33,661 nucleotides of DNA from a virus, in the IMG/VR virus record IMGVR_UViG_3300034685_000262, positions 1 through 33,661 of that record, one strand, 5' to 3'. Position 1 is the first letter of the stretch, and the number at the start of each line of letters is the position of its first letter. Below the pieces are notes generated by a model, which made no database searches, had not been told where the DNA came from, and saw nothing but the letters and a program-made list of their open reading frames with translations. A program made the position numbers and the translations under genes. Shown here in pieces: positions 14,554 through 31,765 of this stretch.

Positions 14554-14626
14554 TCAATTATCTGTTTCTATAAGCGGTGGGTAGTTGGCCATGAAAAAGT
14601 ACACATATATTTTCTAAAAATTTCCA

Positions 14627-14659
14627 TTTAACTAAAACACTATTAATAAACTATAAGTA
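14627..14659 (+). promoter_or_regulatory. Phage promoter-like box, copy 2
   Basis: TTTAACT (14627-14633), exactly 18 bases, TATAAGTA (14652-14659). The flank AAATTTCCA before the first box is shared with copy 3 at 21525. It starts the leader of the ssDNA-binding protein and polymerase genes. Confidence 0.6.
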
Positions 14660-14678
14660 AGTAGAAAGAAAAATTTCA

Positions 14679-14937
14679 GACTTTGTTGTACCTAGTTCGC
14701 ATTAAGGGTACCTATGCTTTTAGGGTTGCGAATACCTAAGAGGACAAAGTCACAACAGTCAATAAAAAATTATTAATTTGTTTTGTACGGTGCCGTTACA
14801 TCGGAATTTAAGCCTTTGGAGAGTCATACTAAACGCAAGTAGGATTCCGAAAGCGGACTCTAGGAATAAGGAAAAGAACATAAAAGTTATAAAACTAATA
14901 ACTTTTTATAAGTTTCTTATAACGGACAAAGTCACAA
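14679..14937 (+). ncRNA. Structured leader RNA with nested hairpin, pseudoknot and repeated 14-mer
   Basis: The 424 bases between 14554 and 14977 hold no convincing gene. GACTTTGT (14679-14686) pairs with ACAAAGTC (14744-14751), enclosing TTCGCA/TGCGAA (14696-14701 with 14727-14732). GGACAAAGTCACAA occurs twice (14742-14755 and 14924-14937), so the second copy could compete for the same partner strand. Between them TCGGAAT (14801-14807) pairs with ATTCCGA (14844-14850), and AGAGTC (14820-14825) pairs with GACTCT (14856-14861). The two stems interleave as a pseudoknot. An AAAAGTTAT/ATAACTTTT hairpin with a T-run follows near 14883-14905. This looks like a cis-regulatory RNA for the downstream genes; its class is not recognised. 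Confidence 0.55.
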
Positions 14938-14977
14938 AGAAAATAAAAAAAATAAAAGTGAAAAGGAGAAAAGAAAT

Positions 14978-15550
14978 ATGTTTAAAGGGTTTAATCAAAT
15001 TAAAGAAGCTATGGAAAAAACTGCGACATTGTTTAAAATGAAATCTGGAGAAAGCAAACTTATAAGAGTTCTTGTGCCGACAAGAGAGATAAATGCGGCT
15101 TATGAACATGTAGAAAATTTTGGTGGTTTTTGGAAGACTATTGAGTGTTTAGGAAAGAGAGAATGTCCTTTATGTAAGACAGGTAAATCTGCTTCTCTAA
15201 GAGCGTATATTCCTGTTCTGGATAAAACAGACGGTAAAGTTAAGATTTTTAAAGCATCAAAAGATGTTATTAGATTTCTTATTGCTTTGGAAGAAGAATA
15301 TGGGGATCTCTGTAACTATGATTTGAAAGTTGTAAGGCAGGGTGAGGGACTTAAAACACAATACAGCTTTTTTGCTAAAGATAAAAGTGATGAAGATTTA
15401 TCAAAGTATGCTGAGTATATACCGCCAATAGAAAATCTTATTGAAAAACTTACAAAAGAAGAGATTGAAGAACTAATGGATGGCAGTACACCCGTGAGTA
15501 ATAGTGATAATAATGGTAATAAAGATGACGATGAAGATTATCCGTTTTAA
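14978..15550 (+). CDS. Single-stranded DNA-binding protein, gp32-like
   Basis: 190 residues; ATG after AAAAGGAG. The core (SGESKLIRVLVPTREI, then FWKTIECLGKRECPLC) has the aromatic and basic pattern of gp32-like OB-fold proteins; ECPLC may contribute metal ligands. The C-terminus is highly acidic (NKDDDEDYPF) and ends in an aromatic tip, as in SSB proteins, where the tail recruits replication partners. It would coat ssDNA at the phage fork and during RecA-type recombination. It sits just upstream of the polymerase and downstream of a long structured leader, which may tune its level. Family assignment is by eye. Confidence 0.7.
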   Translation: MFKGFNQIKEAMEKTATLFKMKSGESKLIRVLVPTREINAAYEHVENFGGFWKTIECLGKRECPLCKTGKSASLRAYIPVLDKTDGKVKIFKASKDVIRFLIALEEEYGDLCNYDLKVVRQGEGLKTQYSFFAKDKSDEDLSKYAEYIPPIENLIEKLTKEEIEELMDGSTPVSNSDNNGNKDDDEDYPF

Positions 15551-15556
15551 CTTAAC

Positions 15557-15784
15557 TTGACAAGAAGTCTCCCCACTCATAGTGGTGTGGAGATGGATTA
15601 TAGAATATTTAGCCGAAGGCCTTTATCAGAATTAACCAACTCATCTCCAGCTTCTATAAGCGGGAGATGAATTGGTATTAGGGTAGGAATTATCCGAAGT
15701 TATGCCTGTTGAGTTAGTGGATTACGGGGATGGTGAAGCAGGAATCCCCACCTTACGCTTCATTTAGAAGGTGGAGAATTTCAA
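15557..15784 (+). mobile_element. IS200/IS605 remnant with omegaRNA-like right end, no tnpB or tnpA
   Basis: Starts with TTGAC (15557-15561), a possible insertion/TAM motif, followed by a hairpin CCAC/GTGG (15573-15585). A strong stem TCATCTCC/GGAGATGA (15641-15670) comes next. From 15682 the sequence GGTAGGAATTATCCGAAGTT continues to GAAGCAGGAA and a right-end hairpin CCACCTT/AAGGTGG (15748-15774), ending in TTTCAA (15779-15784). This order is typical of IS605-family right ends, where the tnpB 3' end doubles as the omegaRNA scaffold. Read as protein, it gives a stop-broken match to the TnpB C-terminus (VGIIRSYAC). No transposase gene is present. A related element lies at 26703-26843. Confidence 0.65.
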
Positions 15785-15805
15785 GAAGGATATTGAGGTG
15801 GTTTT

Positions 15806-16459
15806 ATGGATTTAGATTTAATATCCTATATTATAGACGGTTTAGAAAAGAAAAAGAAAGGATTGAATAATAGCATAGTAAAAAAGGAGAAACCGATAAA
15901 AGTAAAGAAATTAACAAAAAAGCAACAGCAGATATTAGAAATTGCTAATGAAACAATCCTTCCAGATAATTATCATGTAATTTGGACAGAAGATCAGTTA
16001 GATGGTGTGTGTGATTTATTATTGCTGGAGGATTATGTGGCTGTCGACACTGAAACTACTGGTATAAATCCTTTTGTTAATGAAATTGTTGGTTTTTCAT
16101 TGTGGTTGCCGAAATTTAATTGTGGTTATTATGTTCCATTAAAACATGTTGATGATATTGGTTCTAGTCCTCCACCCGTTGGTGGGCGGGTAGGTATTGA
16201 TTATGTAAAATGTTTATCTAAAGATACTGTAATTAAAAAAGTTAAACCTTTATTAGAAGATAGTAAGAAAAAGCTCATATTACACAACAGTAAATTTGAT
16301 ATGCACATTTTATATAATTGGTTAGGCATTAAAATTACTCCTTATTTTGATACAATGATTGCTTCGGCATTATTAGATGAAAACCAATCAAAAGGATTAA
16401 AAGAGTTATCAGGGATATATCTTAAAGAGCCTGCTGATAAATTTAGTACGCTGTTCGGT
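15806..16459 (+). CDS. polA: DNA polymerase I (family A), exon 1: proofreading exonuclease part
   Basis: Residues 1-218 of a 746-residue polymerase split over three exons (15806-16459, 16722-17402, 18774-19679). The ATG follows GAGGTGG by 6 bases. The 3'-5' exonuclease motifs are intact: AVDTETTG (Asp81, Glu83) and LILHNSKFD (Asn161, Asp165). The N-terminal 5'-3' exonuclease of bacterial Pol I is absent, as usual in phage enzymes. The exon ends on a codon boundary after ...TLFG: GTTCGG at its end pairs with CCGAAC inside the intron, a P1 helix with a T-G pair at the splice site. Unspliced, translation would stop at 16463-16465. Confidence 0.85.
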
Positions 16460-16721
16460 AAGTAATAATTTTGCCGAACTAAAACCTACCTCAATCGGTG
16501 AAGCCCTAACGTAAAGTCGAGGGTAATACCGAGCCTACAATACTGGTGACAGTAGTTGGGGTGTAACGACTTGATGAGCTATTTAGCGGGTAGTTTGTCA
16601 GAAGCAAGTTTAAAACTTGCTTAAACGGTAGGCACAAATCTTTGGAGTAACCGCTAATAAAACTCCTATTAAAAGGTTTGTGAAGGTATAGTCTACTCCA
16701 TTGGAAACAATGGGTATAGTG
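16460..16721 (+). ncRNA. Group I intron 1 in the polymerase gene, no ORF
   Basis: 262 bases between exons 1 and 2. P1 is formed by GTTCGGT of the exon and GCCGAAC in the intron. The diagnostic 3' core GAAGGTATAGTCT (16682-16694) matches the GAAGATATAGTC-type P7/J8-7 signature of phage group IA introns, and ACGGTAGGCACAAAT upstream fits the P3/P7 strands. The intron is taken to end at G16721, giving the continuous protein TLFG-KETFDTVP. The 5' site is well supported. The 3' site is set by reading frame and terminal G, because P10 pairing is short (about three A-T pairs). Confidence 0.8.
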
Positions 16722-17402
16722 AAAGAAACATTTGATACAGTCCCGATACTGTTAAAAGAGGGGCGGCGGGGGTGTTTAGCAGGGTATTATGCTATTAAAG
16801 ATACTTATATGACATATAGATTATATGAGTTTTTTAATAAAGCATTGAATAGATCCGGGTTAGAAAAAATAAAGCAACTTTTCTTTGAATTAGAGATGCC
16901 TTTTATTAATATCGTGTGGGACAGTGAACAGCACGGTGTAAAATTTGATTTAGATTATATTACAAACACTGTAGCTGTACAATTACACAAAGAATACGAA
17001 GAATTGCAATCTCAGATTTATTCTTATCTTGGCGAAATTAATTTAAAATCACCAAAGCAGTTATCTGAAGTCTTGTATAAAAAATTAAATCTCCCTGTTG
17101 TTAATAAAAAGAAAGCTGACAGTACAGATAGAAAGACTTTAAAGAAATTAAAGAACGCCCATCCTGTTATTCCACTGTTACTAGAATTTAGGGCAAAAGC
17201 AAAACTCATTGATGCTTTTGTTGAAAAGCTTCCTAAAAATGTTGTTAACGGGAGAATACACACGAGTTTTCAAACAATAGGATGCGTTACTGGTAGGATG
17301 AGTAGTAGCAACCCTAATTTACAACAACTCCCTGCTGGTAACTTAATTAGAAATGCTTTTGTAGCAGATGAAGGAAGGTTGCTTTTGTCTTGTGACTTCA
17401 GT
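16722..17402 (+). CDS. polA: DNA polymerase I (family A), exon 2
   Basis: Residues 219-445. It completes the exonuclease domain with YYAIKD (Exo III, Tyr241 and Asp245) and continues into the thumb and palm (INLKSPKQLSEVLYKKLNLP, GRIHTSFQTIGCVTGRMSSS, NPNLQQLP). It ends within catalytic motif A at CDFS, with Asp443 the metal-binding aspartate. In-frame codons continue upstream to 16701 but belong to intron 1. The end at 17402 is fixed by P1: GACTTCAG pairs with CTGAAGTC in intron 2, and a TGA follows immediately if unspliced. Confidence 0.85.
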
Positions 17403-18773
17403 TGAGTGTGGGCTGAAGTCGTTAATCTAAACCTACTCAAAACAGGGAACGCTAAGGTTTACTTTCAAAATATTTTGTATGTTTGTGTATTTTTAGCAAT
17501 TTTAGGGGTGTGTAAAATTAGTTTTAATATTGCTTTTAAAACAAATTTTATTAAATGAGGTGCAATAAAGTTTGTGTATTAATAGGAGTTCTAATAGTTA
17601 TAAATTAACCAAAAGATTTACACAAGAAATACCTAGAGATATTTTAGAGGATTTATATGTTAATAAAAATATGTCGTGTAAAGAAATTGCCGAGGTATTT
17701 GGCTGTTCAAAAGACTGTATTAATAACAGATTGCGCTTATTTAATATTCCTTTAAGAGTGAGAAATTATTCTGATTCTATTATCTTAACAAAAGAAGCTC
17801 TTTATACTATGTATGTTTTAGAGAAAAAATCTCAAAAAGAAATTGCAAAAATAATAAATAGGTCTCAAACTTATGTTAGAAGTAAGATGGAAGAGTTTGG
17901 TATTGAAGCTAGAGACAGTGGTATTGCACAAGCAATGAAAAGAGGATTTTCTATAAATGAACAGTTTTTCTTTTCTTGGTCAAAAGAATTTGCTTATTTA
18001 CTAGGTTTACTTTTTGCAGATGGTTCGATTAGTAGTGGAAAGAAGTATAGTATTAAATTGCAATTGAAAGATCAAGATTATGAACTTTTAGAAAAAATAG
18101 CTGATTTAATTAATTATCCTAAAAATTCAATTAAATTAATTATTAACAAACAATTTAATACACGACATAGAGCTATTGTTTTTAACCGGAGAGATATTGT
18201 AAATCAGTTAATGAAATGTGGGCTAACTGCTAAAAAATCAAAAACTAAAAAATTTCCTGATGTACCTGATGAATATTTAAGTGATTTTATTAGAGGGTAT
18301 TTTGATGGTAATGGTACTGTTTATATATGTAGAAATAATTTATGTTTTGGGTTTTCTTGTGGGTCTAAAGATTTTATAACAAAACTTCATGAAATAGTAT
18401 TAATGCATGTTAATAGTTTTGTTAAAGTTTTTGTTGACAAAAGAACAGGTAATAATAATTATTCGTTTATAATAGCAGGTAATCATTGTGCAAAAGAATT
18501 TTATAATTTTATTTATACACACCCTTATTTATTTCTTGAACGTAAAAAAAGAGTTTTTGAAAGTAAACTATGCTAACCCTGTGCTCCCAGTGGAGGGGAG
18601 TGCAACGACTGAGTATTAATTGTTATTTATAAATAACAATTAATACGAATACAGGTCGCTACCTTATAATAGGTAAATCAATCGAACCTGTATATACGGT
18701 AGGCTGAGGCTTAGTTTCCACAAAGTTGCCTCATGAAGGTATAGTCTGGCTTACAGGAAACTGTAAGGTATTG
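17403..18773 (+). mobile_element. Group I intron 2 with LAGLIDADG homing endonuclease gene, inserted in polymerase motif A
   Basis: 1371 bases. P1 is a perfect 8-bp pairing of exon GACTTCAG with intron CTGAAGTC, plus a T-G at the splice site. The core near the 3' end has TACGGTAGGCTGAGG and TGAAGGTATAGTCT (18733-18746). Taking G18773 as the last base yields DFS-SQELRW, the expected family A motif A. TCACA at the start of exon 3 can pair with TGTGG just before the internal guide (P10), supporting this boundary. The ORF for a homing endonuclease sits in a peripheral loop. Insertion in a near-invariant catalytic codon run is typical of homing introns. Confidence 0.85.
17572..18576 (+). CDS. LAGLIDADG homing endonuclease inside intron 2
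   Basis: 334 residues from TTG at 17572, 9 bases after AGGTG. Two LAGLIDADG motifs are visible: LLGLLFADGS (about residues 143-152) and FIRGYFDGNG (about 239-248), so it should act as a monomer cutting the intronless polymerase allele. The N-terminal ~130 residues carry two helix-turn-helix-like repeats (MSCKEIAEVFGCSKDCINNR and KSQKEIAKIINRSQTYVRSK), likely added DNA-binding modules. Acidic Asp/Glu at the motif ends are retained, so it may be active. It is embedded in the intron and does not contribute to the polymerase reading frame. Confidence 0.88.
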   Translation: MCINRSSNSYKLTKRFTQEIPRDILEDLYVNKNMSCKEIAEVFGCSKDCINNRLRLFNIPLRVRNYSDSIILTKEALYTMYVLEKKSQKEIAKIINRSQTYVRSKMEEFGIEARDSGIAQAMKRGFSINEQFFFSWSKEFAYLLGLLFADGSISSGKKYSIKLQLKDQDYELLEKIADLINYPKNSIKLIINKQFNTRHRAIVFNRRDIVNQLMKCGLTAKKSKTKKFPDVPDEYLSDFIRGYFDGNGTVYICRNNLCFGFSCGSKDFITKLHEIVLMHVNSFVKVFVDKRTGNNNYSFIIAGNHCAKEFYNFIYTHPYLFLERKKRVFESKLC

Positions 18774-19679
18774 TCACAGGAATTGCGCTGGTTGGGGGAA
18801 CTTTCTAAAGATTCTTTATTAATGGATATATACAAAAATAATAAAGATGTTCATTCAATGACTGGTACTAAAATATGGAATATGCAAAATCCTGATAAAC
18901 AATTAACTTATGAAGAGTTTTGCTATTGTAGGGGTATGTATCCATTATTCCATGATGCTGATGGTAATTTAATTGAAGAGAGGTTTAATGATACTAATTA
19001 TATAAATCAGTTATTTACTGAAGGTAAGATTAATACAACAGATCCGGTTAAATTAAAAGAGGACGCTGTACTAGGGAAGAAATTAGAGAAAATTAGAAAG
19101 TTTGCTAAAACAGTAAATTTCGGTACTGTATATGGGATAGGGGCTTCTAGTTTAGCAGATACTTTAGAGGTTTCAGAAGAAGAGGCTCAAATGTTTATTG
19201 ACGGGTTTTTTGAGACATATAAAGGTGTTTCAAAATGGGTTCGTAGTATATGGAAACAGGTTGATTCTAAAAAGTATGTTGAAACTATTCTTGGCAGAAA
19301 ACGCCGCTTGTATAATGAAGTTAATAGTGGGCAAGCTTGGCAATTAGAAAGTGCACATCGAATGGCCGTAAATTTTTGTATTCAAGGGAGTTCTGGAGAT
19401 CAATTAAAGACAGCTTGTCTAAAACTACAGCCTTTGTTAAAGGAATTAAATTCCAGAATTGTATTATATATACATGATGAGCTCATTATAGATGTACCAG
19501 AGAATATTGGTATTGATAATATTAGAAGGATTCAGGAAGTAATGTGTAATGCTATTCCAATGAATATCGGTATGCTTTCTGATGCAGAGTGTGGGTGGCG
19601 TTGGTCACAGATATTATCTGAAGATGAAATAGAGAAATTACATTTGTCTAATGTTAATGAAGATGAAAACGAGGAGTAA
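18774..19679 (+). CDS. polA: DNA polymerase I (family A), exon 3: catalytic palm and fingers
   Basis: Residues 446-746, starting SQELRW directly after the intron and completing motif A. Motif B is RKFAKTVNFGTVYG (Lys557, Phe561, Tyr565, Gly566) in the O-helix, and motif C is YIHDELIID (His679, Asp680, Glu681). All catalytic residues of family A are present, so spliced protein should be a proofreading replicative polymerase. The frame is open back to 18726, but those codons lie in the intron core. The next gene has its ribosome-binding site just after the stop. Confidence 0.88.
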   Translation, partial: SQELRWLGELSKDSLLMDIYKNNKDVHSMTGTKIWNMQNPDKQLTYEEFCYCRGMYPLFHDADGNLIEERFNDTNYINQLFTEGKINTTDPVKLKEDAVLGKKLEKIRKFAKTVNFGTVYGIGASSLADTLEVSEEEAQMFIDGFFETYKGVSKWVRSIWKQVDSKKYVETILGRKRRLYNEVNSGQAWQLESAHRMAVNFCIQGSSGDQLKTACLKLQPLLKELNSRIVLYIHDELIIDVPENIGIDNIRRIQEVMCNAIPMNIGMLSDAECGWRWSQILSEDEIEKLHLSNVNEDENEE

Positions 19680-19693
19680 AGGAGTTGGTGCTA

Positions 19694-20557
19694 TTGAGTT
19701 TAGCAAATTTAGTAAAAAGGATTAAAGCAGAAATAAGAGAACAAGAGAAACCTTTGGGTGAAAAGTTTATAAAGTCATTAGATGATTTTTTAGTTCAGGA
19801 TAGGGGTAGTAAAAATAAACTTGGTAGTTGTTATATACGTCCTTCTCTTTATTATAAATGTATACGCCAGGTATGGTATAAAATATTAGGTTTTCCTTGT
19901 TCTGAGAATACGAATGCAAGAAGTATTAGAACTTTAGAAATTGGTACTGCATTACATGAATGGGTACAAAGAGAAATATTTATGCAAAAAGATTTTCCTT
20001 TTTCACTCGTCCCCCCTCATGAGCTTCCGGCGTGGGGGCGGGAAGGGATTGAGTTTTTTAATGAGCAACAAAATAGAGAAGAAAACAGACCGGATATGGA
20101 AATAGGATTTATAGATAAAAGGTGGACGGAAAAATATTATATCTATAGTATTGTAGATGGTATTTTTAATTTTGAAAATATGGATATGATATTTGAATTT
20201 AAGACTATAAATCCTAATGATTTTGATTATTTATATGAGCCTTTGGAGGATCATAAAAAACAAGCTGCATTATACGCGCTGAGTTTAGGTATTGATAACA
20301 TAATGTTTTTATACCTCAATAAAGGTAATTCTCAATGGAAGGCATTTCATTTTGAAGTTAATCAAGAACAAAAGGAGTGGGCTTTAAAGCGAGTGCAATT
20401 AATTGATAGACATTTAATAAATAAAGTACTTCCTGAGAAAGAAGAGAATAATTACTGCAACTTTTGTGCTTATAAGAAACTTTGTCAGGAAAATAAGTGT
20501 AATGCTGTTTATGTTCAAGATTCTGATTTTTTTGTGTGGGGTGGGTGGCTAGATTAA
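19694..20557 (+). CDS. RecB/Cas4-like PD-(D/E)XK nuclease with probable iron-sulfur cluster
   Basis: 287 residues from TTG at 19694, 9 bases after AAAGGAG (19678-19684); in-frame TTG and GTG at 19685 and 19688 are too close to the site. Key features are SLYYKCIRQVWY (first Cys), LEIGTALHEWVQ, MIFEFKTIN (the E-x-K of the nuclease core) preceded by an Asp, and a C-terminal NYCNFCAYKKLCQ with three cysteines. One Cys early and CX2CX5C late is the Cas4/AddB pattern for a 4Fe-4S cluster. It probably degrades or resects DNA during recombination or replication. The polymerase gene is immediately upstream. Confidence 0.8.
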   Translation: MSLANLVKRIKAEIREQEKPLGEKFIKSLDDFLVQDRGSKNKLGSCYIRPSLYYKCIRQVWYKILGFPCSENTNARSIRTLEIGTALHEWVQREIFMQKDFPFSLVPPHELPAWGREGIEFFNEQQNREENRPDMEIGFIDKRWTEKYYIYSIVDGIFNFENMDMIFEFKTINPNDFDYLYEPLEDHKKQAALYALSLGIDNIMFLYLNKGNSQWKAFHFEVNQEQKEWALKRVQLIDRHLINKVLPEKEENNYCNFCAYKKLCQENKCNAVYVQDSDFFVWGGWLD

Positions 20558-20572
20558 TTATAATCCAGCTAA

Positions 20573-20597
20573 CTACCACCATCTCTGTAGGTGGTGG
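20573..20597 (+). other. Intergenic hairpin, weak terminator or IS end remnant
   Basis: CTACCACC pairs with GGTGGTGG around a 9-base loop. No U-tract follows. GAAGTTTCAA about 15 bases later resembles the TTTCAA end of the element at 15557-15784, so it may be a decayed IS605 end. Evidence is thin. Confidence 0.4.
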
Positions 20598-20675
20598 ACG
20601 AGCTTATTGGAAGTTTCAATATAATTAATAACTTGTAAAGTGTTATCTAAGAGAGAGGAGGGGGGGGAGAAGTGG

Positions 20676-20855
20676 ATGGAAAAATTTTTCAGTTTATTTA
20701 CGTGTAGTATGTGTATTATTGGTTTTGTTAATAGTATGGCCATATCATATAAATATGGTCCTAATTTAAAAGTATCGTTATTTTCTATGGTTATGGGTTT
20801 AGTTTGTTGTATGGCATTTATTTATCAGTTAAAAGAATATTTTAGAGAAAGGTGA
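20676..20855 (+). CDS. Small membrane protein of unknown function
   Basis: 59 residues from ATG at 20676; a GTG at 20640 is in frame but lies before the ribosome-binding site GGAGGGGGGGGAG. Two hydrophobic segments are visible (FSLFTCSMCIIGFVNSMAI, and VSLFSMVMGLVCCMAFIYQL) with a basic C-terminus (KEYFRER). Cys-rich helices are unusual but unexplained. It is followed after 4 bases by the ThyX-like gene. No function is recognised. Confidence 0.6.
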   Translation: MEKFFSLFTCSMCIIGFVNSMAISYKYGPNLKVSLFSMVMGLVCCMAFIYQLKEYFRER

Positions 20856-20859
20856 TTTT

Positions 20860-21498
20860 ATGAAGATAGAAAATGCGCAAGTGTTTGGTTTTGAGGCATC
20901 AATTCGTGCTTTACGCAATCCGCTTAATTCGTGGGAGAAAAGTGATAGTAGAATCAAAAGTTGTGATGACCCCTTATACTGGTGTAGTAAAAATGCAAAT
21001 GAAGAAAGATTTGTGTTAGGTGAAAATGATATGCTATTATCACAGAAATTAACCAAAGCAGGAACAGAACACTGTAAGCATTTAAGACTTATAACTGTTT
21101 GGGTAGATATTACTGCTCCCAGATTTTGGTGGCAAGAGTTTGATACTTATAGACATGTTGAAAAAATATCTTGTTCTACAATGCATACTCTTATGAAAGG
21201 GCCTGTAGGTGAATTAGATTTTGAGAAAGATAATATACCGGCATCATTAATTGAAAAAATAAATACTTATATTCAGTTGTATCAAGATACAAATGACCCA
21301 GAAGAGAAACGTGATTTTTTAGTAGCATGTAAAAATATTCTTCCTGAGGGATTTTTACAGAAACGTACGATTTGTACCAACTATCAAACATTGTTGAATA
21401 TATTTAAGCAACGCAGACAACATAAGCTCCCGCAATGGCATCAATTTTGCAGTTGGATTTTGGAATTACCTTACTTTGTTATGTTAACTGGAGTATAA
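20860..21498 (+). CDS. ThyX-like protein (possible flavin-dependent thymidylate synthase)
   Basis: 212 residues; ATG after AAAGGTG. The central RHVEKISCSTMH resembles the ThyX signature (RHR-x7-S), though the third position is not Arg. GENDMLLSQKLTKAGTEHCK, TAPRFWWQEFDTYRH and RRQHKLPQWHQFCSWI match the general order of ThyX helices. ThyX makes dTMP from dUMP using FAD and methylenetetrahydrofolate, which would complement the dUTPase and NrdD here. Because signature residues are only partly kept, it could instead be a divergent phage homologue with another role. Confidence 0.6.
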   Translation: MKIENAQVFGFEASIRALRNPLNSWEKSDSRIKSCDDPLYWCSKNANEERFVLGENDMLLSQKLTKAGTEHCKHLRLITVWVDITAPRFWWQEFDTYRHVEKISCSTMHTLMKGPVGELDFEKDNIPASLIEKINTYIQLYQDTNDPEEKRDFLVACKNILPEGFLQKRTICTNYQTLLNIFKQRRQHKLPQWHQFCSWILELPYFVMLTGV

Positions 21499-21524
21499 CA
21501 GTTAACATTTGTATAAAATTTCCA

Positions 21525-21557
21525 TTTAACTAAAACCATTCCTGCAAGGTATAAGTA
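21525..21557 (+). promoter_or_regulatory. Phage promoter-like box, copy 3
   Basis: TTTAACT (21525-21531), exactly 18 bases, TATAAGTA (21550-21557). Preceded by AAATTTCCA as in copy 2. It precedes the RusA-RecA cluster. Confidence 0.6.
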
Positions 21558-21590
21558 AGTAGGAGGAATTTTTGAAAGGAATGGTTTTAG
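21530..21590. repeat. Perfect 14-bp inverted repeat around promoter-like box 3 and an SD
   Basis: CTAAAACCATTCCT (21530-21543) and AGGAATGGTTTTAG (21577-21590) are exact reverse complements. The 33-base loop contains TATAAGTA and AGGAGG. In RNA it would put the ribosome-binding site in the loop; in DNA it may be an operator. Confidence 0.65.
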
Positions 21591-21705
21591 TGTCTAAAAA
21601 GTTTCAGAAAGTTCAGGATAATGTTTTAAAGATGCTACACTCGTAGATTCAATAACTCGCGCTTATAGAAGGCTATTAGCGAATGGTAAACTTAAGAGGG
21701 GTTGA
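21572..21705 (+). pseudogene. Short phage gene remnant split by a frame change (or -1 frameshift product)
   Basis: A TTG at 21572 follows AGGAGG and reads 24 codons (KGMVLVSKKFQKVQDNVLKM) to TAG at 21644-21646. The -1 frame continues with ATLVDSITRAYRRLLANGKL to TGA at 21703-21705. The two parts look like the ends of a small phage protein whose C-terminus has an S-x-T-R-A-x-R-R pattern. The overlap contains T TTA AAG (21625-21631), a formal slippery heptamer in the right phase, and a hairpin CGCTTATAG/CTATTAGCG (21660-21681) follows. An internal deletion or indel is the simpler explanation. Confidence 0.5.
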
Positions 21706-21709
21706 TTCT

Positions 21710-21982
21710 ATGTCTATTACGATAAGTATTGATGCTGTGAAAGATATTGATGTAAGTGAGTATGCTGGTATTCAGATTGATTTTAAGCTCCGAAACGGAG
21801 CAAGTACACGTCTTGAACTGTCCTTATCAGATGCTGAATTTTTAAAAGAGCGTCTTGAAGAGTTTTTTCATGGACAAACTTTTGGGGATTTAAAGTTTGA
21901 ATTTGATGACAAGATACAAGAACTTAAGGAAGAGTGCCATATTTTAAGAGAAGAAAATGCAGCGTTAAGGGTGGGTTGGTAG
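21710..21982 (+). CDS. Small protein with C-terminal coiled coil, unknown function
   Basis: 90 residues from ATG at 21710 after GAGGGG (21696-21701); an upstream ATG at 21683 is in frame but precedes that site. The N-terminal half is strand-rich (SITISIDAVKDIDVSEY, IQIDFKLRNG). The C-terminal half is a charged helix with a heptad look (DDKIQELKEECHILREENAA), likely a coiled coil. It ends one base before the TTG of the RusA gene. No family recognised. Confidence 0.6.
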   Translation: MSITISIDAVKDIDVSEYAGIQIDFKLRNGASTRLELSLSDAEFLKERLEEFFHGQTFGDLKFEFDDKIQELKEECHILREENAALRVGW

Positions 21983-21983
21983 C

Positions 21984-22397
21984 TTGAAAACTGTATCTTT
22001 TACAATACTAGGTGAACCAAAATCAAAACAGAGAGCGAGAATTTTAAAAAATGGGCATAGGTATACACCTGAAGATACTGTTAATTATGAAGTACTTGTT
22101 AAAGAGATGTATGCTATTGCTACAGGTGGTGGGTATTATTTTGAAGGCCCTGTTAAAGTAGATATAACAGCTTATTTTTCAATACCACGATCAGTTAGCA
22201 AGAAAAAACGCACTGAAATGCTTGCAGGTAAAATAAGACCAATGAAGCTTGACTGCGATAACATAGCAAAAATAATTTTTGATGGGTTAAATGGTGTTGC
22301 ATTTAAAGATGACAAACAAGTTGTTGAGCTTAAGGTAATTAAATTTTATTCTGCAAGCCCATGCGTTGAAGTTAAAATTTCAGAGTTTTTGGAGTAG
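21984..22397 (+). CDS. rusA: RusA-type Holliday junction resolvase
   Basis: 137 residues, TTG start. The sequence opens FTILGEPKSKQRAR, the RusA family start (substrate-binding Lys/Gln/Arg). It contains RPMKLDCDNIAKIIFDGLNG, with the D-x-D-N-x-x-K catalytic aspartates, and FKDDKQVVEL, with further catalytic Asp residues. Length is close to E. coli RusA (120). It resolves four-way junctions formed by RecA-type recombination or fork regression, and could also debranch DNA before packaging. It lies in a cluster with RecA and another junction-type nuclease. Confidence 0.9.
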   Translation: MKTVSFTILGEPKSKQRARILKNGHRYTPEDTVNYEVLVKEMYAIATGGGYYFEGPVKVDITAYFSIPRSVSKKKRTEMLAGKIRPMKLDCDNIAKIIFDGLNGVAFKDDKQVVELKVIKFYSASPCVEVKISEFLE

Positions 22398-22403
22398 GGT
22401 ATT

Positions 22404-22943
22404 ATGGATAGGAAAGAAATTGAGCAAAATATTGAGAAAATGATTACTGCTAGTAAAGTTGCTGCTAAATTAAAAATTTCTGGCTTACCTGTCCCGCAAA
22501 AACCAGATTTTTTAGATAGTAATATTACTATTTTTGATGAGTGGGACAGACTTAAAAAAGAGTATGGTGGTATTGCTAACATTCCTTTTAATGAATTAGG
22601 TGAATATTTAGACAAATGGTCAAATCTGATCTCTTATGCACGTTGGACAGAAGCAGTTGCAGATATAAAGCAAGCCACTTCTCGTGAAATTAGGGATACT
22701 GTTGAAAAACAACTATATGTCTTACAGGATGGTGGGCGGGAGCTGAGAGCAGCATCAGTTCAAACAGAGCCTATATATATTCAATGGGAAAATAAATTTG
22801 TAGAGGATTACGCTTATTATGTGGCAGTAAAGGGGTTAAGGGAAGGTTATGAATGTAGGGCTAATTCTATAAGCAGAGAAATAACAAGAAGAACTACAGA
22901 ATTTAGTGATAATAGAAGAAGTTTTAATCGGGGAGGGGCGTAA
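22404..22943 (+). CDS. Helical protein of unknown function in recombination cluster
   Basis: 179 residues, almost entirely predicted helix and charged: DRKEIEQNIEKMITASKVAA, YLDKWSNLISYARWTEAVAD, and a C-terminal FVEDYAYYVAVKGLREGYEC and RREITRR-like basic stretch. I do not recognise a family. Its position between RusA and RecA, size and basic helical C-terminus would suit a recombination mediator (UvsY-like role), but this is speculation. Its stop touches the GTG of the next reading frame. Confidence 0.65.
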   Translation: MDRKEIEQNIEKMITASKVAAKLKISGLPVPQKPDFLDSNITIFDEWDRLKKEYGGIANIPFNELGEYLDKWSNLISYARWTEAVADIKQATSREIRDTVEKQLYVLQDGGRELRAASVQTEPIYIQWENKFVEDYAYYVAVKGLREGYECRANSISREITRRTTEFSDNRRSFNRGGA

Positions 22944-22944
22944 G

Positions 22945-23214
22945 GTGAAAAGATATAATAAAGAAGAGAAACTTAATTTTATTAGTAGTTAGTTGTTTAG
23001 TAGTTTATTATTTGCTGTTAATTCTGTTACTTATGATGAAGATGAAGAGGTTCCGTTTATAATTTTAGTTATTTTAATCGAACAAATTAAAGAGTTTTTA
23101 AGTGAGTCGGGTTTTACTTACAGGGTACAGAAAGAAGAATCTGAAGGTAGTGATAATATTATTGCTCCTAATGGAGGGTGGAAGAATGCTTTTAGACGGA
23201 AAAAGGGTAATTAA
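22945..23214 (+). pseudogene. Small gene interrupted by an in-frame amber codon
   Basis: A GTG at 22945 has an excellent ribosome-binding site (GGGGAGGGG, 6-base spacing) and reads KRYNKEEKLNFISS before TAG at 22990-22992. The same frame then stays open for 73 more codons (LFSSLLFAVNSVTYDEDEEV, ILVILIEQIKEFLSESGF, ending FRRKKGN). The TTG right after the TAG has no ribosome-binding site. The simplest reading is one 89-codon gene broken by a single nonsense change; amber suppression is the alternative. TAG ends many other genes here, so it is not generally reassigned. Confidence 0.55.
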
Positions 23215-23455
23215 GAAAATAGAGTTCGAGCGATACTTAAACACATTAGGTTTTCCACGTGAGGTATTAAATAATTCGGCAAATAGAATAAAGAGAAGTA
23301 CTAAATATGGTTCATGGTTAAAAAGAACAAATCCTGAAAAATTTAATCGATTGTATAATGAATATCTTGAGAAACATGATGCTACTCCTGTTAATTCAAA
23401 AAATCCTGAAATATGGTCTGAATTTATTAAATCCTGTATGAAGGCGGTGGATTGA
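23186..23455 (+). CDS. Small basic protein of unknown function
   Basis: 89 residues from ATG at 23186, just after GGAGGGTGG; the reading frame is open further upstream but without a suitable start site. It overlaps the end of the preceding frame by 29 bases. The sequence is basic and helical (KRVIKKIEFERYLNTLGFPR, ANRIKRSTKYGSWLKRTNPE, KFNRLYNEYLEKHD), suggestive of nucleic-acid binding. It lies just before RecA and may be co-translated. No family recognised. Confidence 0.6.
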   Translation: MLLDGKRVIKKIEFERYLNTLGFPREVLNNSANRIKRSTKYGSWLKRTNPEKFNRLYNEYLEKHDATPVNSKNPEIWSEFIKSCMKAVD

Positions 23456-23456
23456 G

Positions 23457-24521
23457 TTGGATGATTTACGTGTTATAGTTGCTGATTTAAAGAAGGAATT
23501 TGGTAATGACAGTGTTTTTATTCTTGGTGAAAATGAAAAATTATGTAATGTAGAAACACGATCATCTGGTTCTTTAGCTTTAGATATAGCTCTTGGTGGT
23601 GGGTATGGTAAAGGTAGGGCTGTGGAGTTAAGGGGAGCTGAACGTGCAGGGAAGAGCAGTTTACTTTGTATGGCAATAGCTGAGGCTCAAAAAAATGAAG
23701 AAGATAAATTGTGTGCGATAATAGACACTGAACACACTTTTAACCCTGACTGGGCAATGAAATTAGGAGTGAATTTGAACAGTCTTGTGTTTTCGCAACC
23801 AGATAAACCAGCTGAAGAAATTTATGAGATGATCGAGGTTATGTTAAAAACAAAAAAGTTTAGTATTATTGGCCTTGATAGTTTGGCTGGTCTTGTTCCA
23901 AAAGAAGAGTTTGAAAGTGATGAATGGGATAAAGAAAGCAGGGTGGGGGGAACATCTAAGATCAATGCAAGAGCAATTAGAAAATTAATTAATACAGGTT
24001 TGTTAAGTGATTCAGGTACAACACTAATAATAATTAACCAGCTTAGAGATGCTATAGGTGTTTTTAGCCAGTATGGTGTTCCAACAACTACTGTTGGGGG
24101 GAGATCGTGGAAACATGCATTTACTCATCAAATTGACGTTTCGACTGGAGAGTTTTTTTCTGTTGGAAACGGTGCAGATAAAAAATTTTTAGGCCAGCAG
24201 ATAGTTACTAAGGTAGTTAAAAACAAGATAGGTCCACCATTTCGAAGGGCGGTAATTGATATATATTACGAATATGGTGTTGACAGGGTTGCTGAGTTGG
24301 TTAGTGTTGCCAGGTTAATGGGGGTACTTCATGCTGCTGGAGCTTGGCTAACAGCTATGGATCCTCGTACTGGTGAGGTTCTTTTACATGATGGCAAGGA
24401 GATTAAGTTTAATGGTAAAGAGAAAGCTAGAGAAGCTTTGAATGAGGACATTGAAAAAACAGGTGGAGAAATTTATTTAAAAATTTTAAATTTAGTTTTA
24501 GATGTAGTACAAGGTAGGTGA
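23457..24521 (+). CDS. recA: RecA-like recombinase
   Basis: 354 residues, TTG start right after the upstream stop, ribosome-binding site GGCGGTGG inside the previous gene. Walker A is GAERAGKSS (about 60-68), variant of the bacterial GPESSGKTT. Walker B lies at FSIIGLDSLAGLV, and the L1/L2 DNA-binding region contains ARAIRKL and IINQLRDAIG, with GGRSWKHA following. The glutamine of L2 (NQ) is kept. Length matches bacterial RecA (about 350), but the sequence is divergent, so it is probably phage-lineage RecA. It would pair homologous DNA for repair or recombination-dependent replication. Confidence 0.9.
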   Translation: MDDLRVIVADLKKEFGNDSVFILGENEKLCNVETRSSGSLALDIALGGGYGKGRAVELRGAERAGKSSLLCMAIAEAQKNEEDKLCAIIDTEHTFNPDWAMKLGVNLNSLVFSQPDKPAEEIYEMIEVMLKTKKFSIIGLDSLAGLVPKEEFESDEWDKESRVGGTSKINARAIRKLINTGLLSDSGTTLIIINQLRDAIGVFSQYGVPTTTVGGRSWKHAFTHQIDVSTGEFFSVGNGADKKFLGQQIVTKVVKNKIGPPFRRAVIDIYYEYGVDRVAELVSVARLMGVLHAAGAWLTAMDPRTGEVLLHDGKEIKFNGKEKAREALNEDIEKTGGEIYLKILNLVLDVVQGR

Positions 24522-24527
24522 GCTTCA

Positions 24528-24707
24528 ATGTTTTTAGCAGTAATAATTGCACTAGGGTTATTGAGTTTAAGGTTGTTTTTAGATTATGTAAATGCCATAT
24601 ACTACAGACAAAAGATTGAGGAATTACTAGAGCATGAAAAAACGAGATTTATAGATATGTTTTCAGTTGCTATGGCAAAAGAACTTTTAAAGCGAAAGGC
24701 GGGTTAG
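24528..24707 (+). CDS. Small single-pass membrane protein
   Basis: 59 residues, ATG at 24528 six bases after the RecA stop, with GGTGAGC-like bases upstream. The N-terminus is hydrophobic (FLAVIIALGLLSLRLFL), followed by a charged helix (RQKIEELLEHEKTRFIDMF) ending KRKAG. It fills the gap between recA and the next nuclease gene, with good spacing on both sides, which supports it being real. Function unknown. Confidence 0.5.
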   Translation: MFLAVIIALGLLSLRLFLDYVNAIYYRQKIEELLEHEKTRFIDMFSVAMAKELLKRKAG

Positions 24708-24709
24708 GT

Positions 24710-25072
24710 TTGAATTATAAAAAAATATCAAAAAAACATGAATCCCGAATAGCCCGCCACCTCTCTAAAATAGGAGAATCAGCGAAAGTCCAGAAAGCTT
24801 CAGGCGCAATGTTCAATAAAAAGTCAGATGTCATATCAGAACTTTTCAGAATTGAAGCCAAAACAAAATCAAAGCTTTCAAAATCTATTACCCTTAAAAA
24901 AGAATATTTTGAGAAAATCCATAAAGAAGCTCTTGAGACAGGAAAAATACCTGTATTGGTTTTTTCCTTTGGAGATGGTCAGGATTTCTATGTATTAGAG
25001 GAACATGATTTTTCAATATTAGTACAAGAATTTAAAAATCAAGGAGCGGGCAACAATGAAAGAAAAAGTTAA
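24710..25072 (+). CDS. PD-(D/E)XK resolvase-like endonuclease
   Basis: 120 residues from TTG, with AAAGGCGG upstream. The core is KASGAMFNKKSDVISELFRI, then EAKTKSKLSKSITLKKEYFE and IPVLVFSFGDGQDFYVL. This is the order of Holliday junction resolvase-like nucleases: an early Glu or Ser, Asp37-type residue in KSDV, and the E-A-K motif. Phages often carry this family next to recombination genes. With RusA nearby, it may process different branched substrates. Catalytic residues appear intact, but the assignment is by motif only. Confidence 0.75.
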   Translation: MNYKKISKKHESRIARHLSKIGESAKVQKASGAMFNKKSDVISELFRIEAKTKSKLSKSITLKKEYFEKIHKEALETGKIPVLVFSFGDGQDFYVLEEHDFSILVQEFKNQGAGNNERKS

Positions 25073-25124
25073 GTACATTGAATTTGTAAATGCTGATGGT
25101 GATGACAGAGATGTGGGTATTTAA
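25056..25124 (+). CDS. Possible 22-residue peptide overlapping the nuclease gene end
   Basis: ATG at 25056 follows AAGGAG at 8 bases and reads KEKVKYIEFVNADGDDRDVG to TAA. The strong ribosome-binding site is the only support. It may be the start of a longer gene lost by deletion, since non-coding DNA with an AACCACA/TGTGGTT stem (about 25139-25197) follows. Confidence 0.3.
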   Translation: MKEKVKYIEFVNADGDDRDVGI

Positions 25125-25208
25125 CTTTGAAGGTGGATTAACCACAAAAACATATTTTGATAAATAGTAACCATGCGTTAACTTTCAGTGTGGTTAGGAG
25201 GTTGAAGA

Positions 25209-25430
25209 ATGATTAAGAAAATAGAAAAAACCATTAAAATATGCGACATTTGCAAAAAAGAAGTACCGCATTTTGCAATACCAGAGAAAGACGGTGCAGC
25301 AATACCCCAGATAAGAATATCTAAATATCAGGCACCTGACGAAATGCTAGATGTATGTCAGGACTGTTCAAACGAATTATTAGCAACATTTGCATTGCTG
25401 TGTTTAAAGGCGGTGAGTGAGGATGATTAA
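25209..25430 (+). CDS. Small zinc-ribbon-like protein
   Basis: 73 residues; ATG after AGGAGG. Two Cys pairs (IKICDICKKE, then LDVCQDCSNE) about 37 residues apart form a likely treble-clef or zinc-ribbon site. An acidic tail follows. Such proteins are common in phage early clusters and often bind nucleic acid or RNA polymerase, but no specific role can be given. It overlaps the next small gene by 8 bases. Confidence 0.65.
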   Translation: MIKKIEKTIKICDICKKEVPHFAIPEKDGAAIPQIRISKYQAPDEMLDVCQDCSNELLATFALLCLKAVSEDD

Positions 25431-25596
25431 TTGTGAATATTATGTTCCTGCGTGGGAAGGAAGCAAAACTTCAGGAAAACAACCAGATTTTTGCCTGAAA
25501 TACAAAGTGCCTTTAAACGGGTATTGTATCAAGAACTGCGAAGTTCAAACCAAACTGGTGAGTGAGGGGAAGGATAATGAAAGAAAGCCAGTATAG
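25423..25596 (+). CDS. Small Cys-containing protein, likely zinc-binding
   Basis: 57 residues: MINCEYYVPAWEGSKTSGK, then QPDFCLKYKVPLNGYCIKNC and QTKLVSEGKDNERKPV. The ATG lies inside the end of the preceding gene and its own end overlaps the start of the YopX-like gene, a tight coupled arrangement. Four cysteines (positions 4, 24, 35, 39) could hold a metal. Coupled overlaps on both sides support expression. No family recognised. Confidence 0.5.
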   Translation: MINCEYYVPAWEGSKTSGKQPDFCLKYKVPLNGYCIKNCEVQTKLVSEGKDNERKPV

Positions 25597-25981
25597 GTTC
25601 CGAGTATGGGATGACTTCTGGAAGGAAATGCATTACTTTGATTTTTGCACGAATATTGAAGTGCGAAATGGTTGCTTGTGGGTTGTTCACAGTGAAGGGG
25701 CAATATGCTTAGATTATGTGCCGCCAATACATGTAATGCAATACACTACACGCAAAGACAAAAAAATGCAATGGATATATGGTGGCGATATATTGCGGCG
25801 TGAAGGATGTTGGAATGTAAGAATTGAGTTTGAAAAAGGCGTATTTTGGGTTAGGGACGCAAATAAAGTCAGATACAACAATAAAATATTGAATACACCT
25901 ATTGCATCTTTCCAAATCGAGACATTTGAAGTAATAGGTAATGTATGGCAAAACCCAGAATTGCTAGAAGGAGTGAACTAG
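25577..25981 (+). CDS. YopX family protein
   Basis: 134 residues from ATG at 25577, after GAGGGGAAGG; a GTG at 25562 is in frame but precedes it. The hallmarks are YRFRVWDDFWKEMHYFDF near the start, HVMQYTTRKDKKMQWIYGGD in the middle, and FEVIGNVWQNPELLEG at the end. All match the YopX family found in many Gram-positive phages. The family forms small beta-rich oligomers; its function is unknown. It is in a run of small early-type genes and directly abuts the next start. Confidence 0.85.
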   Translation: MKESQYRFRVWDDFWKEMHYFDFCTNIEVRNGCLWVVHSEGAICLDYVPPIHVMQYTTRKDKKMQWIYGGDILRREGCWNVRIEFEKGVFWVRDANKVRYNNKILNTPIASFQIETFEVIGNVWQNPELLEGVN

Positions 25982-26209
25982 ATGCAACCAATAAAAGATA
26001 GAGACAATGTTCATGTAATTTTACTAGAAGATGGTTCTTATTGGATGTCTGGAGGATTTAGCGGGAATAGAGATGGGATTATGTCCACACTTAATTTAAG
26101 TTCAGCCACTTTTCTACCGTTTGAAGATGCTTGTTATAAAGCCAACAAGTTAAATGAAAATGGAAAGCGTTGTGAAGTTATCCCTGTACTGTTAATAGTT
26201 GATGATTGA
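25982..26209 (+). CDS. Small hypothetical protein
   Basis: 75 residues; ATG directly after the upstream stop, ribosome-binding site AGAAGGAG within it. The sequence HVILLEDGSYWMSGGFSGN, then LPFEDACYKANKLNENGKRC, looks like a small alpha/beta protein. It resembles many short phage early proteins, and I recognise no family. It is last in the small-gene run before a non-coding hairpin. Confidence 0.6.
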   Translation: MQPIKDRDNVHVILLEDGSYWMSGGFSGNRDGIMSTLNLSSATFLPFEDACYKANKLNENGKRCEVIPVLLIVDD

Positions 26210-26254
26210 CTATAGAACAATAGGAAATTTCACTTGAAACCAACTAAAATCAGC

Positions 26255-26299
26255 CCTTATCGTGTATGTGTTATGCTAAAAGCGTAGTACATGATAAGG
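26255..26299 (+). promoter_or_regulatory. Long hairpin masking a Shine-Dalgarno sequence
   Basis: CCTTATCGTGTA (26255-26266) pairs with TACATGATAAGG (26288-26299), 12 bp with one G-T. An inner ATGCT/AGCGT stem with an AAA loop extends it. The 3' strand includes AAGG of the ribosome-binding site AAGGAGG (26296-26302) that serves the GTG at 26310. This is a likely translational switch: riboswitch, thermosensor or protein-binding hairpin. Confidence 0.65.
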
Positions 26300-26309
26300 A
26301 GGAATTTAA

Positions 26310-26412
26310 GTGAATTGTATCAACTTACCCGAGTTTAATGTTTGAAAAATGTCCTTATTGTGGCCAAGAATTAGATTGGAATTACAGTATACCTAACTAT
26401 GAGTGGCAGTAG
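26310..26412 (+). CDS. Tiny zinc-knuckle reading frame(s), overlapping or frameshifted
   Basis: The best ribosome-binding site (AAGGAGG) points to GTG 26310, which reads NCINLPEFNV and stops at 26343-26345. An ATG at 26338 overlaps that stop and reads FEKCPYCGQELDWNYSIPNY to TAG at 26410-26412. CPYCG is a zinc-knuckle pair. Either two coupled mini-ORFs exist, or one gene of about 34 codons carries a frame change around 26337. With the first frame's Cys, a CX..CPYC site would result. Confidence 0.4.
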
Positions 26413-26438
26413 TTAACTAAAAGATGGAGGAAGTAAGT

Positions 26439-26732
26439 GTGATGGGTATTAAAAATGATGATGTTATAAAAAGTGTATATGCAGCTTCACAGTTTCGTAT
26501 GCGGTATGTTGATAGTTTTTTCAATGGTTTATCTGTAGGTGATAAAGTAAGAATTAACTCCCCTTTTTATAAAAATATACTTGCAAGAATTATTCAAAAA
26601 ACTGATTATTTGATAGTTTTACAAGATGTAAATAGGAGCTACATTAGACCTGTAGTAAGTAAATTTGATTATTATTGTGGTGCTTGTAAAATTGAAAAAT
26701 TGGCGTCCGCATTATTTGACTTCAGTTATTAA
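26439..26732 (+). CDS. Small hypothetical protein, 3' end overlapping an omegaRNA-like element
   Basis: About 97 residues from GTG 26439 (8 bases after GGAGG; ATG 26442 is the alternative). The sequence GIKNDDVIKSVYAASQFRM, then FFNGLSVGDKVRINSPFYKN and KTDYLIVLQDVNRSYI, suggests a small SH3- or KOW-like beta barrel (GDKVRI). Two Cys occur late (YYCGACKIEK). The last 10 codons form the left strand of the stem of the downstream element, so the natural C-terminus may have been replaced by the insertion. Confidence 0.55.
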   Translation: MMGIKNDDVIKSVYAASQFRMRYVDSFFNGLSVGDKVRINSPFYKNILARIIQKTDYLIVLQDVNRSYIRPVVSKFDYYCGACKIEKLASALFDFSY

Positions 26733-26843
26733 TAAGGACGCTGTTACGGTAGGAACTATCGGAAGTTACGCCTGTGGAGTTAGTAGGTTGCGAGGACGAA
26801 GAAGCAGGAAGAAGCCTACGACTTCAGTCGTGGGAGGTTCACA
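26703..26843 (+). mobile_element. Second omegaRNA-like IS605 right-end element, no transposase
   Basis: GCGTCC (26703-26708) pairs with GGACGC (26736-26741). From 26748, GGTAGGAACTATCGGAAGTT to GAAGCAGGAA matches the element at 15682 in about 52 of 63 bases by my count. A right-end hairpin CCTACGAC/GTCGTGGG (26815-26834) and TTCACAA follow. One frame is open and reads VGTIGSYACGVSRLRGRRSR, similar to TnpB C-termini, but the nuclease domain is missing. So this is the RNA-coding end of an IS605 element, with no tnpB in this window. Confidence 0.6.
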
Positions 26844-26913
26844 AAGTTAACGAAATAGATTTGTTTTTATTTTAACTATAAATTTTAAATTGTTTAGAAG
26901 GAGTCGATTTAAT

Positions 26914-28806: not shown

Positions 28807-29264
28807 GAATAGCAGCTACTCAATATTCATTGGAGACAAAAAGTTTTGAGGTTTATGTTTCTGGCTGTAAAGGCAATCCGTATTGTTCGGGTTGCCATAA
28901 TCCAGAATTGTGGGATTTCAAAATCGGTAGTATCTATAATGAAAAGTATTTTTCTTATTTAAAAAACAGAATTAAACAGTTTGATATTTTAGTTGACAAT
29001 ATTATGGTAATGGGCGGGGAGCCTTTAGACCAAGATATTAATAGTTTGATTAAATTTCTAAAAGATTTAAAAACATTGAACAAACAAATATGGCTTTTCA
29101 CAAGGTTTGAACTAGAAGAAATTCCAAAAGAAGTTTTAAGTTTATGTGATTATGTAAAAACAGGTAGATATCTAAAAGACTTGCAAACTGTTGATAATAC
29201 TCAGTTTGGTATAAAATTAGCGACATCGAATCAAAAAATATTTAAGTTAGCGGAGGTGCGATAA
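28800..29264 (+). CDS. nrdG: Anaerobic ribonucleotide reductase activase, radical SAM
   Basis: 154 residues; ATG overlaps the end of nrdD. The cluster motif is GCKGNPYCSGCHNPELWDF, with cysteines spaced CX5CX2C instead of the usual CX3CX2C. MVMGGEPLDQ is the GGE motif that binds the SAM amino group. It would install the glycyl radical on NrdD using SAM and a 4Fe-4S cluster. Length matches NrdG (about 155). The widened first spacing is worth checking but may be normal in this subfamily. Confidence 0.88.
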   Translation: MLRIAATQYSLETKSFEVYVSGCKGNPYCSGCHNPELWDFKIGSIYNEKYFSYLKNRIKQFDILVDNIMVMGGEPLDQDINSLIKFLKDLKTLNKQIWLFTRFELEEIPKEVLSLCDYVKTGRYLKDLQTVDNTQFGIKLATSNQKIFKLAEVR

Positions 29265-29267
29265 TAG

Positions 29268-29774
29268 ATGAGATTAATTCAACCGATAAAAGTGAGAGGA
29301 TTCGAAAAAGTCTCGTTTGAGCAGTATTGTAAAGATATGGGTGGTAATGCTGATTTATTACAAGAATACAACGATATAAAATTACCTAGAAGAGCAACAA
29401 AATATTCTGCCGGATATGATTTTTTTAGTCCGATATCATTCATTCTCCAACCAGGAGAGCAAATAAAAATACCTACTGGTATAAAGGCTTATATGTTAGA
29501 TGATGAAGCATTACTTCTATATATTAGAAGTAGTATAGGATTTAAGTTTAATGTAAGATTAAAAAACTGCGTCGCTGTTATAGATAAAGATTACTACGAT
29601 AACATTAACAATGAGGGGCATATATGGATAGCACTTGCAAATGAAGGAGATAAGCAGTTGGAAGTACGCAAGGGAGATGCATTGATTCAAGGTATATTTA
29701 CCAAATTTTTAATGGTAGATGGTGATGGTGTAGATGAAGAAAGACAGGGCGGAATAGGTAGTACTAGTAACTAA
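29268..29774 (+). CDS. dut: dUTPase (deoxyuridine 5'-triphosphate nucleotidohydrolase)
   Basis: 168 residues; ATG after GGAGGTG at the nrdG end. The five trimeric dUTPase motifs are in order: SAGYDFFSP (I), YIRSSIGFK (II), AVIDKDYYDNI (III, catalytic Asp), ALIQGIFTKF (IV), and RQGGIGSTSN (V). It hydrolyses dUTP to dUMP, protecting phage DNA from uracil and feeding the ThyX-like step. An N-terminal extension of about 30 residues (RLIQPIKVRGFEKVSFEQYC) precedes motif I. Follows nrdG directly in a nucleotide-metabolism operon. Confidence 0.92.
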   Translation: MRLIQPIKVRGFEKVSFEQYCKDMGGNADLLQEYNDIKLPRRATKYSAGYDFFSPISFILQPGEQIKIPTGIKAYMLDDEALLLYIRSSIGFKFNVRLKNCVAVIDKDYYDNINNEGHIWIALANEGDKQLEVRKGDALIQGIFTKFLMVDGDGVDEERQGGIGSTSN

Positions 29775-29799
29775 ACGTTTTGAAAGGTAGGTTTTTGAA

Positions 29800-30153: not shown

Positions 30154-30216
30154 AACTAAATCCAGTAGGTTCTAACGTACTTTTTAAAATACTTTGAAAG
30201 GAGAGAAATTCAAGTT

Positions 30217-30558: not shown

Positions 30559-30581
30559 CCTTGTACAGTTTAAGTAGGTTT

Positions 30582-30600
30582 AAGGTGGTGATACTACCTT
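30582..30600 (+). promoter_or_regulatory. Hairpin containing the ribosome-binding site of the second sigma gene
   Basis: AAGGTGGT (30582-30589) pairs with ACTACCTT (about 30593-30600) around a 3-base loop, 8 bp with one G-T. The left strand is the Shine-Dalgarno of the TTG at 30600, so folding would reduce translation. Confidence 0.5.
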
Positions 30601-31758: not shown

Positions 31759-31765
31759 TACTGAA

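Follow-up and report, generated by a model that had tools for sequence, protein, structure and literature searches.

TnpA moves the ends of IS200/IS605-family elements as single strands. In ISDra2-type elements of this family, the right end carries the scaffold of an omegaRNA (reRNA), followed by a guide of about 16 nt of flanking DNA, with which TnpB cleaves target DNA beside a TAM; subterminal hairpins and a short left motif complete the layout (PMC8612924). TnpB processes a longer transcript into its omegaRNA (PMC10278001), and in plasmids it can behave as a gene drive that promotes the spread of the IS (PMC11870625). Protein-less IS200/IS605 derivatives of the MITE/PATE-like kind and ORF-less variants of the BcISt1 IStron (PMC4227781) keep their ends, have lost their proteins and are presumably moved in trans. 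RAGATH-18 (RF03064) is the scaffold of IS607-type TnpB guide RNAs, and 10,258 of the 16,029 RAGATH-18 RNAs in a survey adjoin an IS607 TnpB while 36% do not (PMC11061315), so orphan copies are not rare. Phages are also described that encode TldR proteins together with a TnpB-type guide RNA (PMC13418256).

The window analysed here is a whole IMG/VR virus record of 33,661 bases with genes for an integrase, a sigma factor, a helicase, a primase, SSB, an interrupted DNA polymerase, a recombinase and an anaerobic ribonucleotide reductase. The sequence under study (element 1) sits in the gap between ssb, which ends at 15550, and polA, which starts at 15806, and is oriented on the coding strand of both genes. 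With a probability of about 0.87, we read positions 15551 (or 15627) to 15784 as a non-autonomous IS200/IS605-family element that consists of one or two left-end hairpins, a TnpB omegaRNA scaffold and a right-end hairpin and has lost tnpA and tnpB; this figure covers the identity of the element, not whether the copy is still active. The kind is already known, and this is a new case in a phage. Element 1 has the right-end scaffold, flanking guide, subterminal hairpins and short left motif of the ISDra2 type but no tnpA or tnpB, a total length of about 160-235 bp and a clostridial-group scaffold that no Rfam family reaches. Unlike the MITE/PATE-like elements and BcISt1 variants, it has a complete omegaRNA and a place in a phage replication module, and this copy contains no intron. 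RAGATH-18 is represented by an orphan copy upstream of ssb in the same phage, although the TnpB family of element 1 is a different one and RAGATH-18 matches our covariance model weakly. The likeness to phage TldR systems extends to a phage-borne TnpB-type guide RNA, but no TldR protein accompanies element 1 and its guide is the insertion flank.

Parts and boundaries of the ssb-polA element

All parts of element 1 lie on the + strand. The outer candidate for its left boundary is a TTTAA target/TAM-like motif at 15546-15550, whose TAA is the ssb stop codon. TTTAA is also found 5' of the left ends of L061, L082, L053, L054 and an element in a polA intron of the sister phage L009, and homology to L009 ends exactly at 15550, the only breakpoint that coincides for element 1, on its left side. 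Next to this motif lies left-end hairpin A (AAGAAGTCTCC...TGGAGATGGATT, 15551-15605), whose exact arms (AAGAAGTCTCC-N-GGAGATG, 15562-15595) are identical to those at the left end of L053, an autonomous tnpA+tnpB element of the clostridial genome G004; these arms occur once in the window and in none of 100 shuffles. After TTTAA, the related left ends contain AAGAAG-TCTCC-hairpin-GGAGATGAATT (L053, L054, L061 and L082, with a variant in the L009 element), and hairpin A is without the outer stem that most relatives have. A first-pass annotation had recognised this hairpin and set the boundary at TTGAC|AAGAAG; the hairpin holds, but relatives begin after TTTAA or TTTAT, and TTGAC is internal to left end A.

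The second candidate for the left boundary is TTTAT at 15622-15626, followed by a left-end-like hairpin B (15627-15678, with the hairpin at 15635-15676; DNA fold z = -8.8) that is fused directly to the scaffold, as is the left hairpin in L061 and L082. The protein-less element L035 also begins at TTTAT|C, and TTTATC is common to element 1, L022 and L023. Group A IStrons, in which the IS belongs to the IS200/IS605 kind, are known to use TTTAT as an insertion motif (PMC4227781). The unit is thus 15551-15784 or 15627-15784, its exact extent being ambiguous, and perhaps one element sits inside the remains of another.

On the right, the omegaRNA scaffold with two main helices and a short inner one (15679-15750) is followed by the right-end hairpin, with a predicted 7-bp stem, and the terminal TTTCAA (15746-15784); hairpins, scaffold and terminus, including the right end at 15784, lie where they had first been placed. 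The right ends of the relatives read GTTCAA or GTTCAC. With subterminal hairpins at both ends, the element carries neither tnpA nor tnpB: the window has no PF07282 match, tblastn with eight TnpBs finds nothing in it or in the sister contig, and tblastn with one TnpA likewise finds nothing in either. The loss of tnpB had been noticed, together with a supposed stop-broken remnant of its frame. No recognisable remnant exists, and the frame through the scaffold is not tnpB, since in relatives the tnpB stop comes just before the scaffold.

The would-be 16-nt guide, of the length used by ISDra2, is the flanking DNA at 15785-15800. It covers the polA ribosome-binding site, as had been proposed, but not the start codon, because a guide of this length ends before the ATG at 15806. 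This placement, and the existence of phage-encoded TldR regulators (PMC13418256), could be taken to mean that element 1 is a domesticated guide RNA regulating polA with a nuclease-dead, TldR-like TnpB, a meaning raised in the first-pass annotation. Such a role is very improbable: neither a TnpB nor a TldR-like protein is encoded by the phage, the element is missing from the sister phage, the guide is simply flanking DNA, as for every such element, and directly to its left stands the element's own end (ATTTCAA), not TTTAA or TTTAT.

Scaffold identity and relatives with and without tnpB

We built a covariance model (R1) from 18 omegaRNA-type 3' ends, several of them directly downstream of an intact tnpB, with the window excluded. 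Compensatory changes occur in 11 of its 16 pairs, a count equalled in none of 500 shuffles, and sliding the partners abolishes the signal; when the window copies are added, 12 of the 16 pairs show double changes, again equalled in 0 of 500 shuffles. Scoring the window blind, with filters off, R1 matches element 1 at 15679-15783 (75.9 bits, E 1.5e-13), and apart from this and two further matches of 91.8 and 24.2 bits nothing in the window exceeds 12.1 bits. To judge from covariation and homology, and not from folding energy (for the whole of element 1 the RNA z = -1.6 is not significant alone), the scaffold is a real structured RNA of the IS200/IS605 TnpB omegaRNA type. The initial description of a lone IS605-type end between ssb and polA, without tnpB and with its omegaRNA scaffold essentially intact, is borne out.

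The ssb-polA spacers of L009, L010 and L049 each hold a hairpin too, which might suggest that element 1 is a native hairpin or terminator of the phage that resembles IS605 ends by chance. These spacer hairpins are, however, unrelated in sequence, and neither a 105-nt blind covariance match nor the exact left-end arms is a chance likeness, so we find this reading scarcely credible.

A covariance search had been suggested as a check. In contrast to the purpose-built R1, the Rfam models assign no family to element 1 at their thresholds, and the best result at E up to 5 is at chance level. A weak RAGATH-18 match among the sub-threshold results was taken as a hint; the IS605-type omegaRNA of the clostridial group and RAGATH-18 have a common core, CCUGUGGAG...GAUGAAGCAGGAA. 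The HEARO/IscB omegaRNA (RF02033) was considered and rejected, since the HEARO model gives no match with E raised to 5. The omegaRNAs of this clostridial IS605 group are missed by Rfam 15 at gathering thresholds, so phage annotation probably reports too few such elements.

The homologous scaffold lies at the 3' end of tnpB or just after it in L027, L029, L034, L036, L037, L039, L045, L056 and L057, and a class-wide search found TnpA followed by an intact TnpB of 366-367 aa directly before the scaffold in L020, L027 and L029. A pattern scan of genome contigs gave six matches, five of them chance and only L006 a true relative, whose genome holds further copies. Among viral contigs, 16 stretches carry the scaffold pattern: tnpB precedes the scaffold in L034, L036, L037 (L041 being the same element), L039 and L045, appears broken in L032/L040 and L033, and is absent or a short 3' scrap in L031, L035, L038 and L046, while L042-L044 lie at contig edges. 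L035 is a protein-less copy with the same layout as element 1. G004 combines the autonomous element (L053/L075), which has left-end arms and a scaffold type as in element 1, with two protein-less copies (L061, L082).

A close autonomous partner with the same ends, or a close match to the right end of element 1, was found neither in phages and plasmids nor in 291 genomes of one clostridial class, and seven genomes of the order of G022 gave no better match. Against phage and plasmid records, blastn returned nothing for element 1 or for the copy near nrdD described below. The exact 20-base scaffold pattern is absent from viral contigs, and the sole viral-contig match to a looser pattern, L008, was rejected as unrelated.

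Further orphan guide RNAs and the sister phage

The first-pass annotation missed two further orphan guide RNAs, at 14786-14916 and 26697-26842. The window therefore holds three, of two TnpB families. The copy at 26697-26842 (146 bp, + strand) follows TTGAA (26692-26696) and lies inside the 3' end of the ORF at 26424-26732, upstream of nrdD; its left boundary was placed by visual comparison with the TTGAA context in L050/L051. It gives the best R1 match in the window, again blind (26745-26841, 91.8 bits, E 9e-17), and differs from the right end of the tnpB-bearing viral contig L039 at 3 of 98 positions, two of which together turn a G-C pair of the first helix into C-G.

The other orphan, upstream of ssb, is a RAGATH-18 RNA (14813-14873, + strand; Rfam RF03064, 64.5 bits), which R1 matches weakly (14786-14916, 24.2 bits, E 0.004). 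It is flanked by a direct repeat, GGACAAAGTCACAA, starting at 14742 and 14924 (region 14742-14937), and the likely guide region consequently matches the left flank too. Upstream of the RAGATH-18 RNA, immediately ahead of where the alignable region begins, half of an IS605-type right-end hairpin (TTCTATAAGCGGTGGGTAGTT) stands at 14560-14592, and L009 has a different hairpin at the corresponding position.

The sister contig L009/L091 (IMGVR_UViG_3300033999_000173) is collinear with the window over 14591-31774 and mostly 98-100% identical in long runs. It has the nrdD copy without any difference across 146 bp and the RAGATH-18 copy with five differences (Rfam 69.3 bits). The element between ssb and polA is missing; in its place the L009 spacer holds another hairpin, and polA starts with divergent sequence. 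In the window, polA is split by two inserts (16466-16730 and 17399-18773). In polA intron 1, L009 carries an additional 223-bp IS605-type element whose left end reads TTTAA|CCTAATCGGCGACAGAAG and whose right end reads GTAGTTCAC. The matching empty site in the window, AAGTTTAA|AACTTGC (16606-16620), is exact, and the target is not duplicated. This pair testifies directly to an IS605-type insertion or loss in the recent history of the lineage. With a weak R1 match (23.9 bits, E 0.015), the RNA of the L009 element is on less sure ground than the ends, and the insertion of this element is not direct evidence for element 1, whose flanks in L009 form no clean empty site. A clean empty site for element 1 was found neither in L009 nor in related phages; the one proposed earlier, TTGAC joined to GAAGGATATTG (TTGACGAAGGATATTGAG), is absent from related phages, its sole match lying in an unrelated context.

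Among the meanings first offered, a non-autonomous element moved by a TnpA in trans fits best, given the clean insertion in L009 and the presence of both autonomous and protein-less copies in G004. A dead relic, an insertion of the same kind that has decayed, is inactive and persists because it is harmless, overlaps with this explanation on identity and differs on activity; we judge it a serious possibility, somewhat short of even odds. Element 1 changes one base that is invariant in the model alignment (TGTGGAG to TGTTGAG), has altered terminal bases and two left-end candidates and, within the 75 to 103 bits spanned by copies with a linked long tnpB frame, scores near the bottom and below most; orphan or tnpB-broken copies are, moreover, common in viral contigs. 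The altered base and the TTTCAA end make some decay of element 1 possible. However, its main helices are all intact, the related L009 element is a clean insertion, and the nrdD copy, which has almost the sequence of a tnpB-linked copy, shows a double change that preserves a base pair.

Element 1 also lies in a tract of about 1.4 kb (about 15000-16430) in which identity to L009 falls to 81-94% per 250-base bin between highly identical runs. Gene conversion leaves such tracts, and this one could be placed within a homing-like process, in which the orphan guide RNAs direct a TnpB, encoded by the host or by some other mobile element, to co-infecting phages without the element; these would be cut at that site and the element copied in, as for homing introns. 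Three orphans in one phage and a fourth in its sister, all in or near genes of replication or nucleotide metabolism, would suit such a process, as would the TnpB-driven spread of plasmid IS (PMC11870625). As a sign of gene conversion the tract is weak, since homing and ordinary phage recombination would both leave it, and divergent tracts without an insertion in either phage occur at 20000-20650, 24300-24700 and 28500-29500. The guide of the L009 element perfectly matches the empty site beside TTTAA in the window, but this is true by construction of every such element; elsewhere in both phages, guide matches amount to noise with three mismatches, plus this expected empty site and the repeat flanking RAGATH-18. 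TnpB is found in neither phage, and we hold homing to be unlikely.

Proposed route of acquisition and maintenance

In this phage lineage, the IS200/IS605 (and IS607-type) elements are polymorphic and non-autonomous; their guide RNA is retained, and the proteins would have to come in trans. As for element 1, a TnpA acting in trans would most likely have brought it into the phage in single-stranded form, beside a TTTAA or TTTAT motif, into a gap between ssb and polA that presumably tolerates insertion. Read-through RNA of ssb-polA would include the scaffold and the guide, and a matching TnpB in the cell could cut the omegaRNA from this transcript. TnpB might then be guided to copies of the site without the element, so that retention of the element would be favoured. 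Targetable DNA would exist only where the motif directly abuts the flank (TTTAA or TTTAT followed by GAAGGATATTGAGGTG), that is, in phages without the element.

An integrase-bearing phage and its sister contig thus carry several orphan guide RNAs, of two TnpB families, near ssb, polA and nrdD, and at least some of these have been gained or lost recently. They form a natural test case for the question whether guide RNAs on their own, with TnpB borrowed in trans, are able to pass from phage to phage. Were the homing-like process true, TnpB guide RNAs without proteins would accumulate in phages at replication genes and serve there as miniature homing elements, each used by a TnpB in trans to cut rival phages without the element at that site and so be copied into them.

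The comparison of the two phages reveals a mosaic in which runs of 100% identity are broken by sharp tracts of 85-94%; divergent tracts lie at 15000-16430, 20000-20650, 24300-24700, 26850-27600 and 28500-29500. The nrdD gene of L009 carries an insertion of ~960 bp (at 27595) that is absent from the window. The polA inserts match no Rfam family at E up to 0.5, leaving their intron type unrecognised by Rfam. The second polA insert (17399-18773) encodes an HNH endonuclease (17572-18576) and is missing from L009, with three mismatches immediately ahead of the insertion site.
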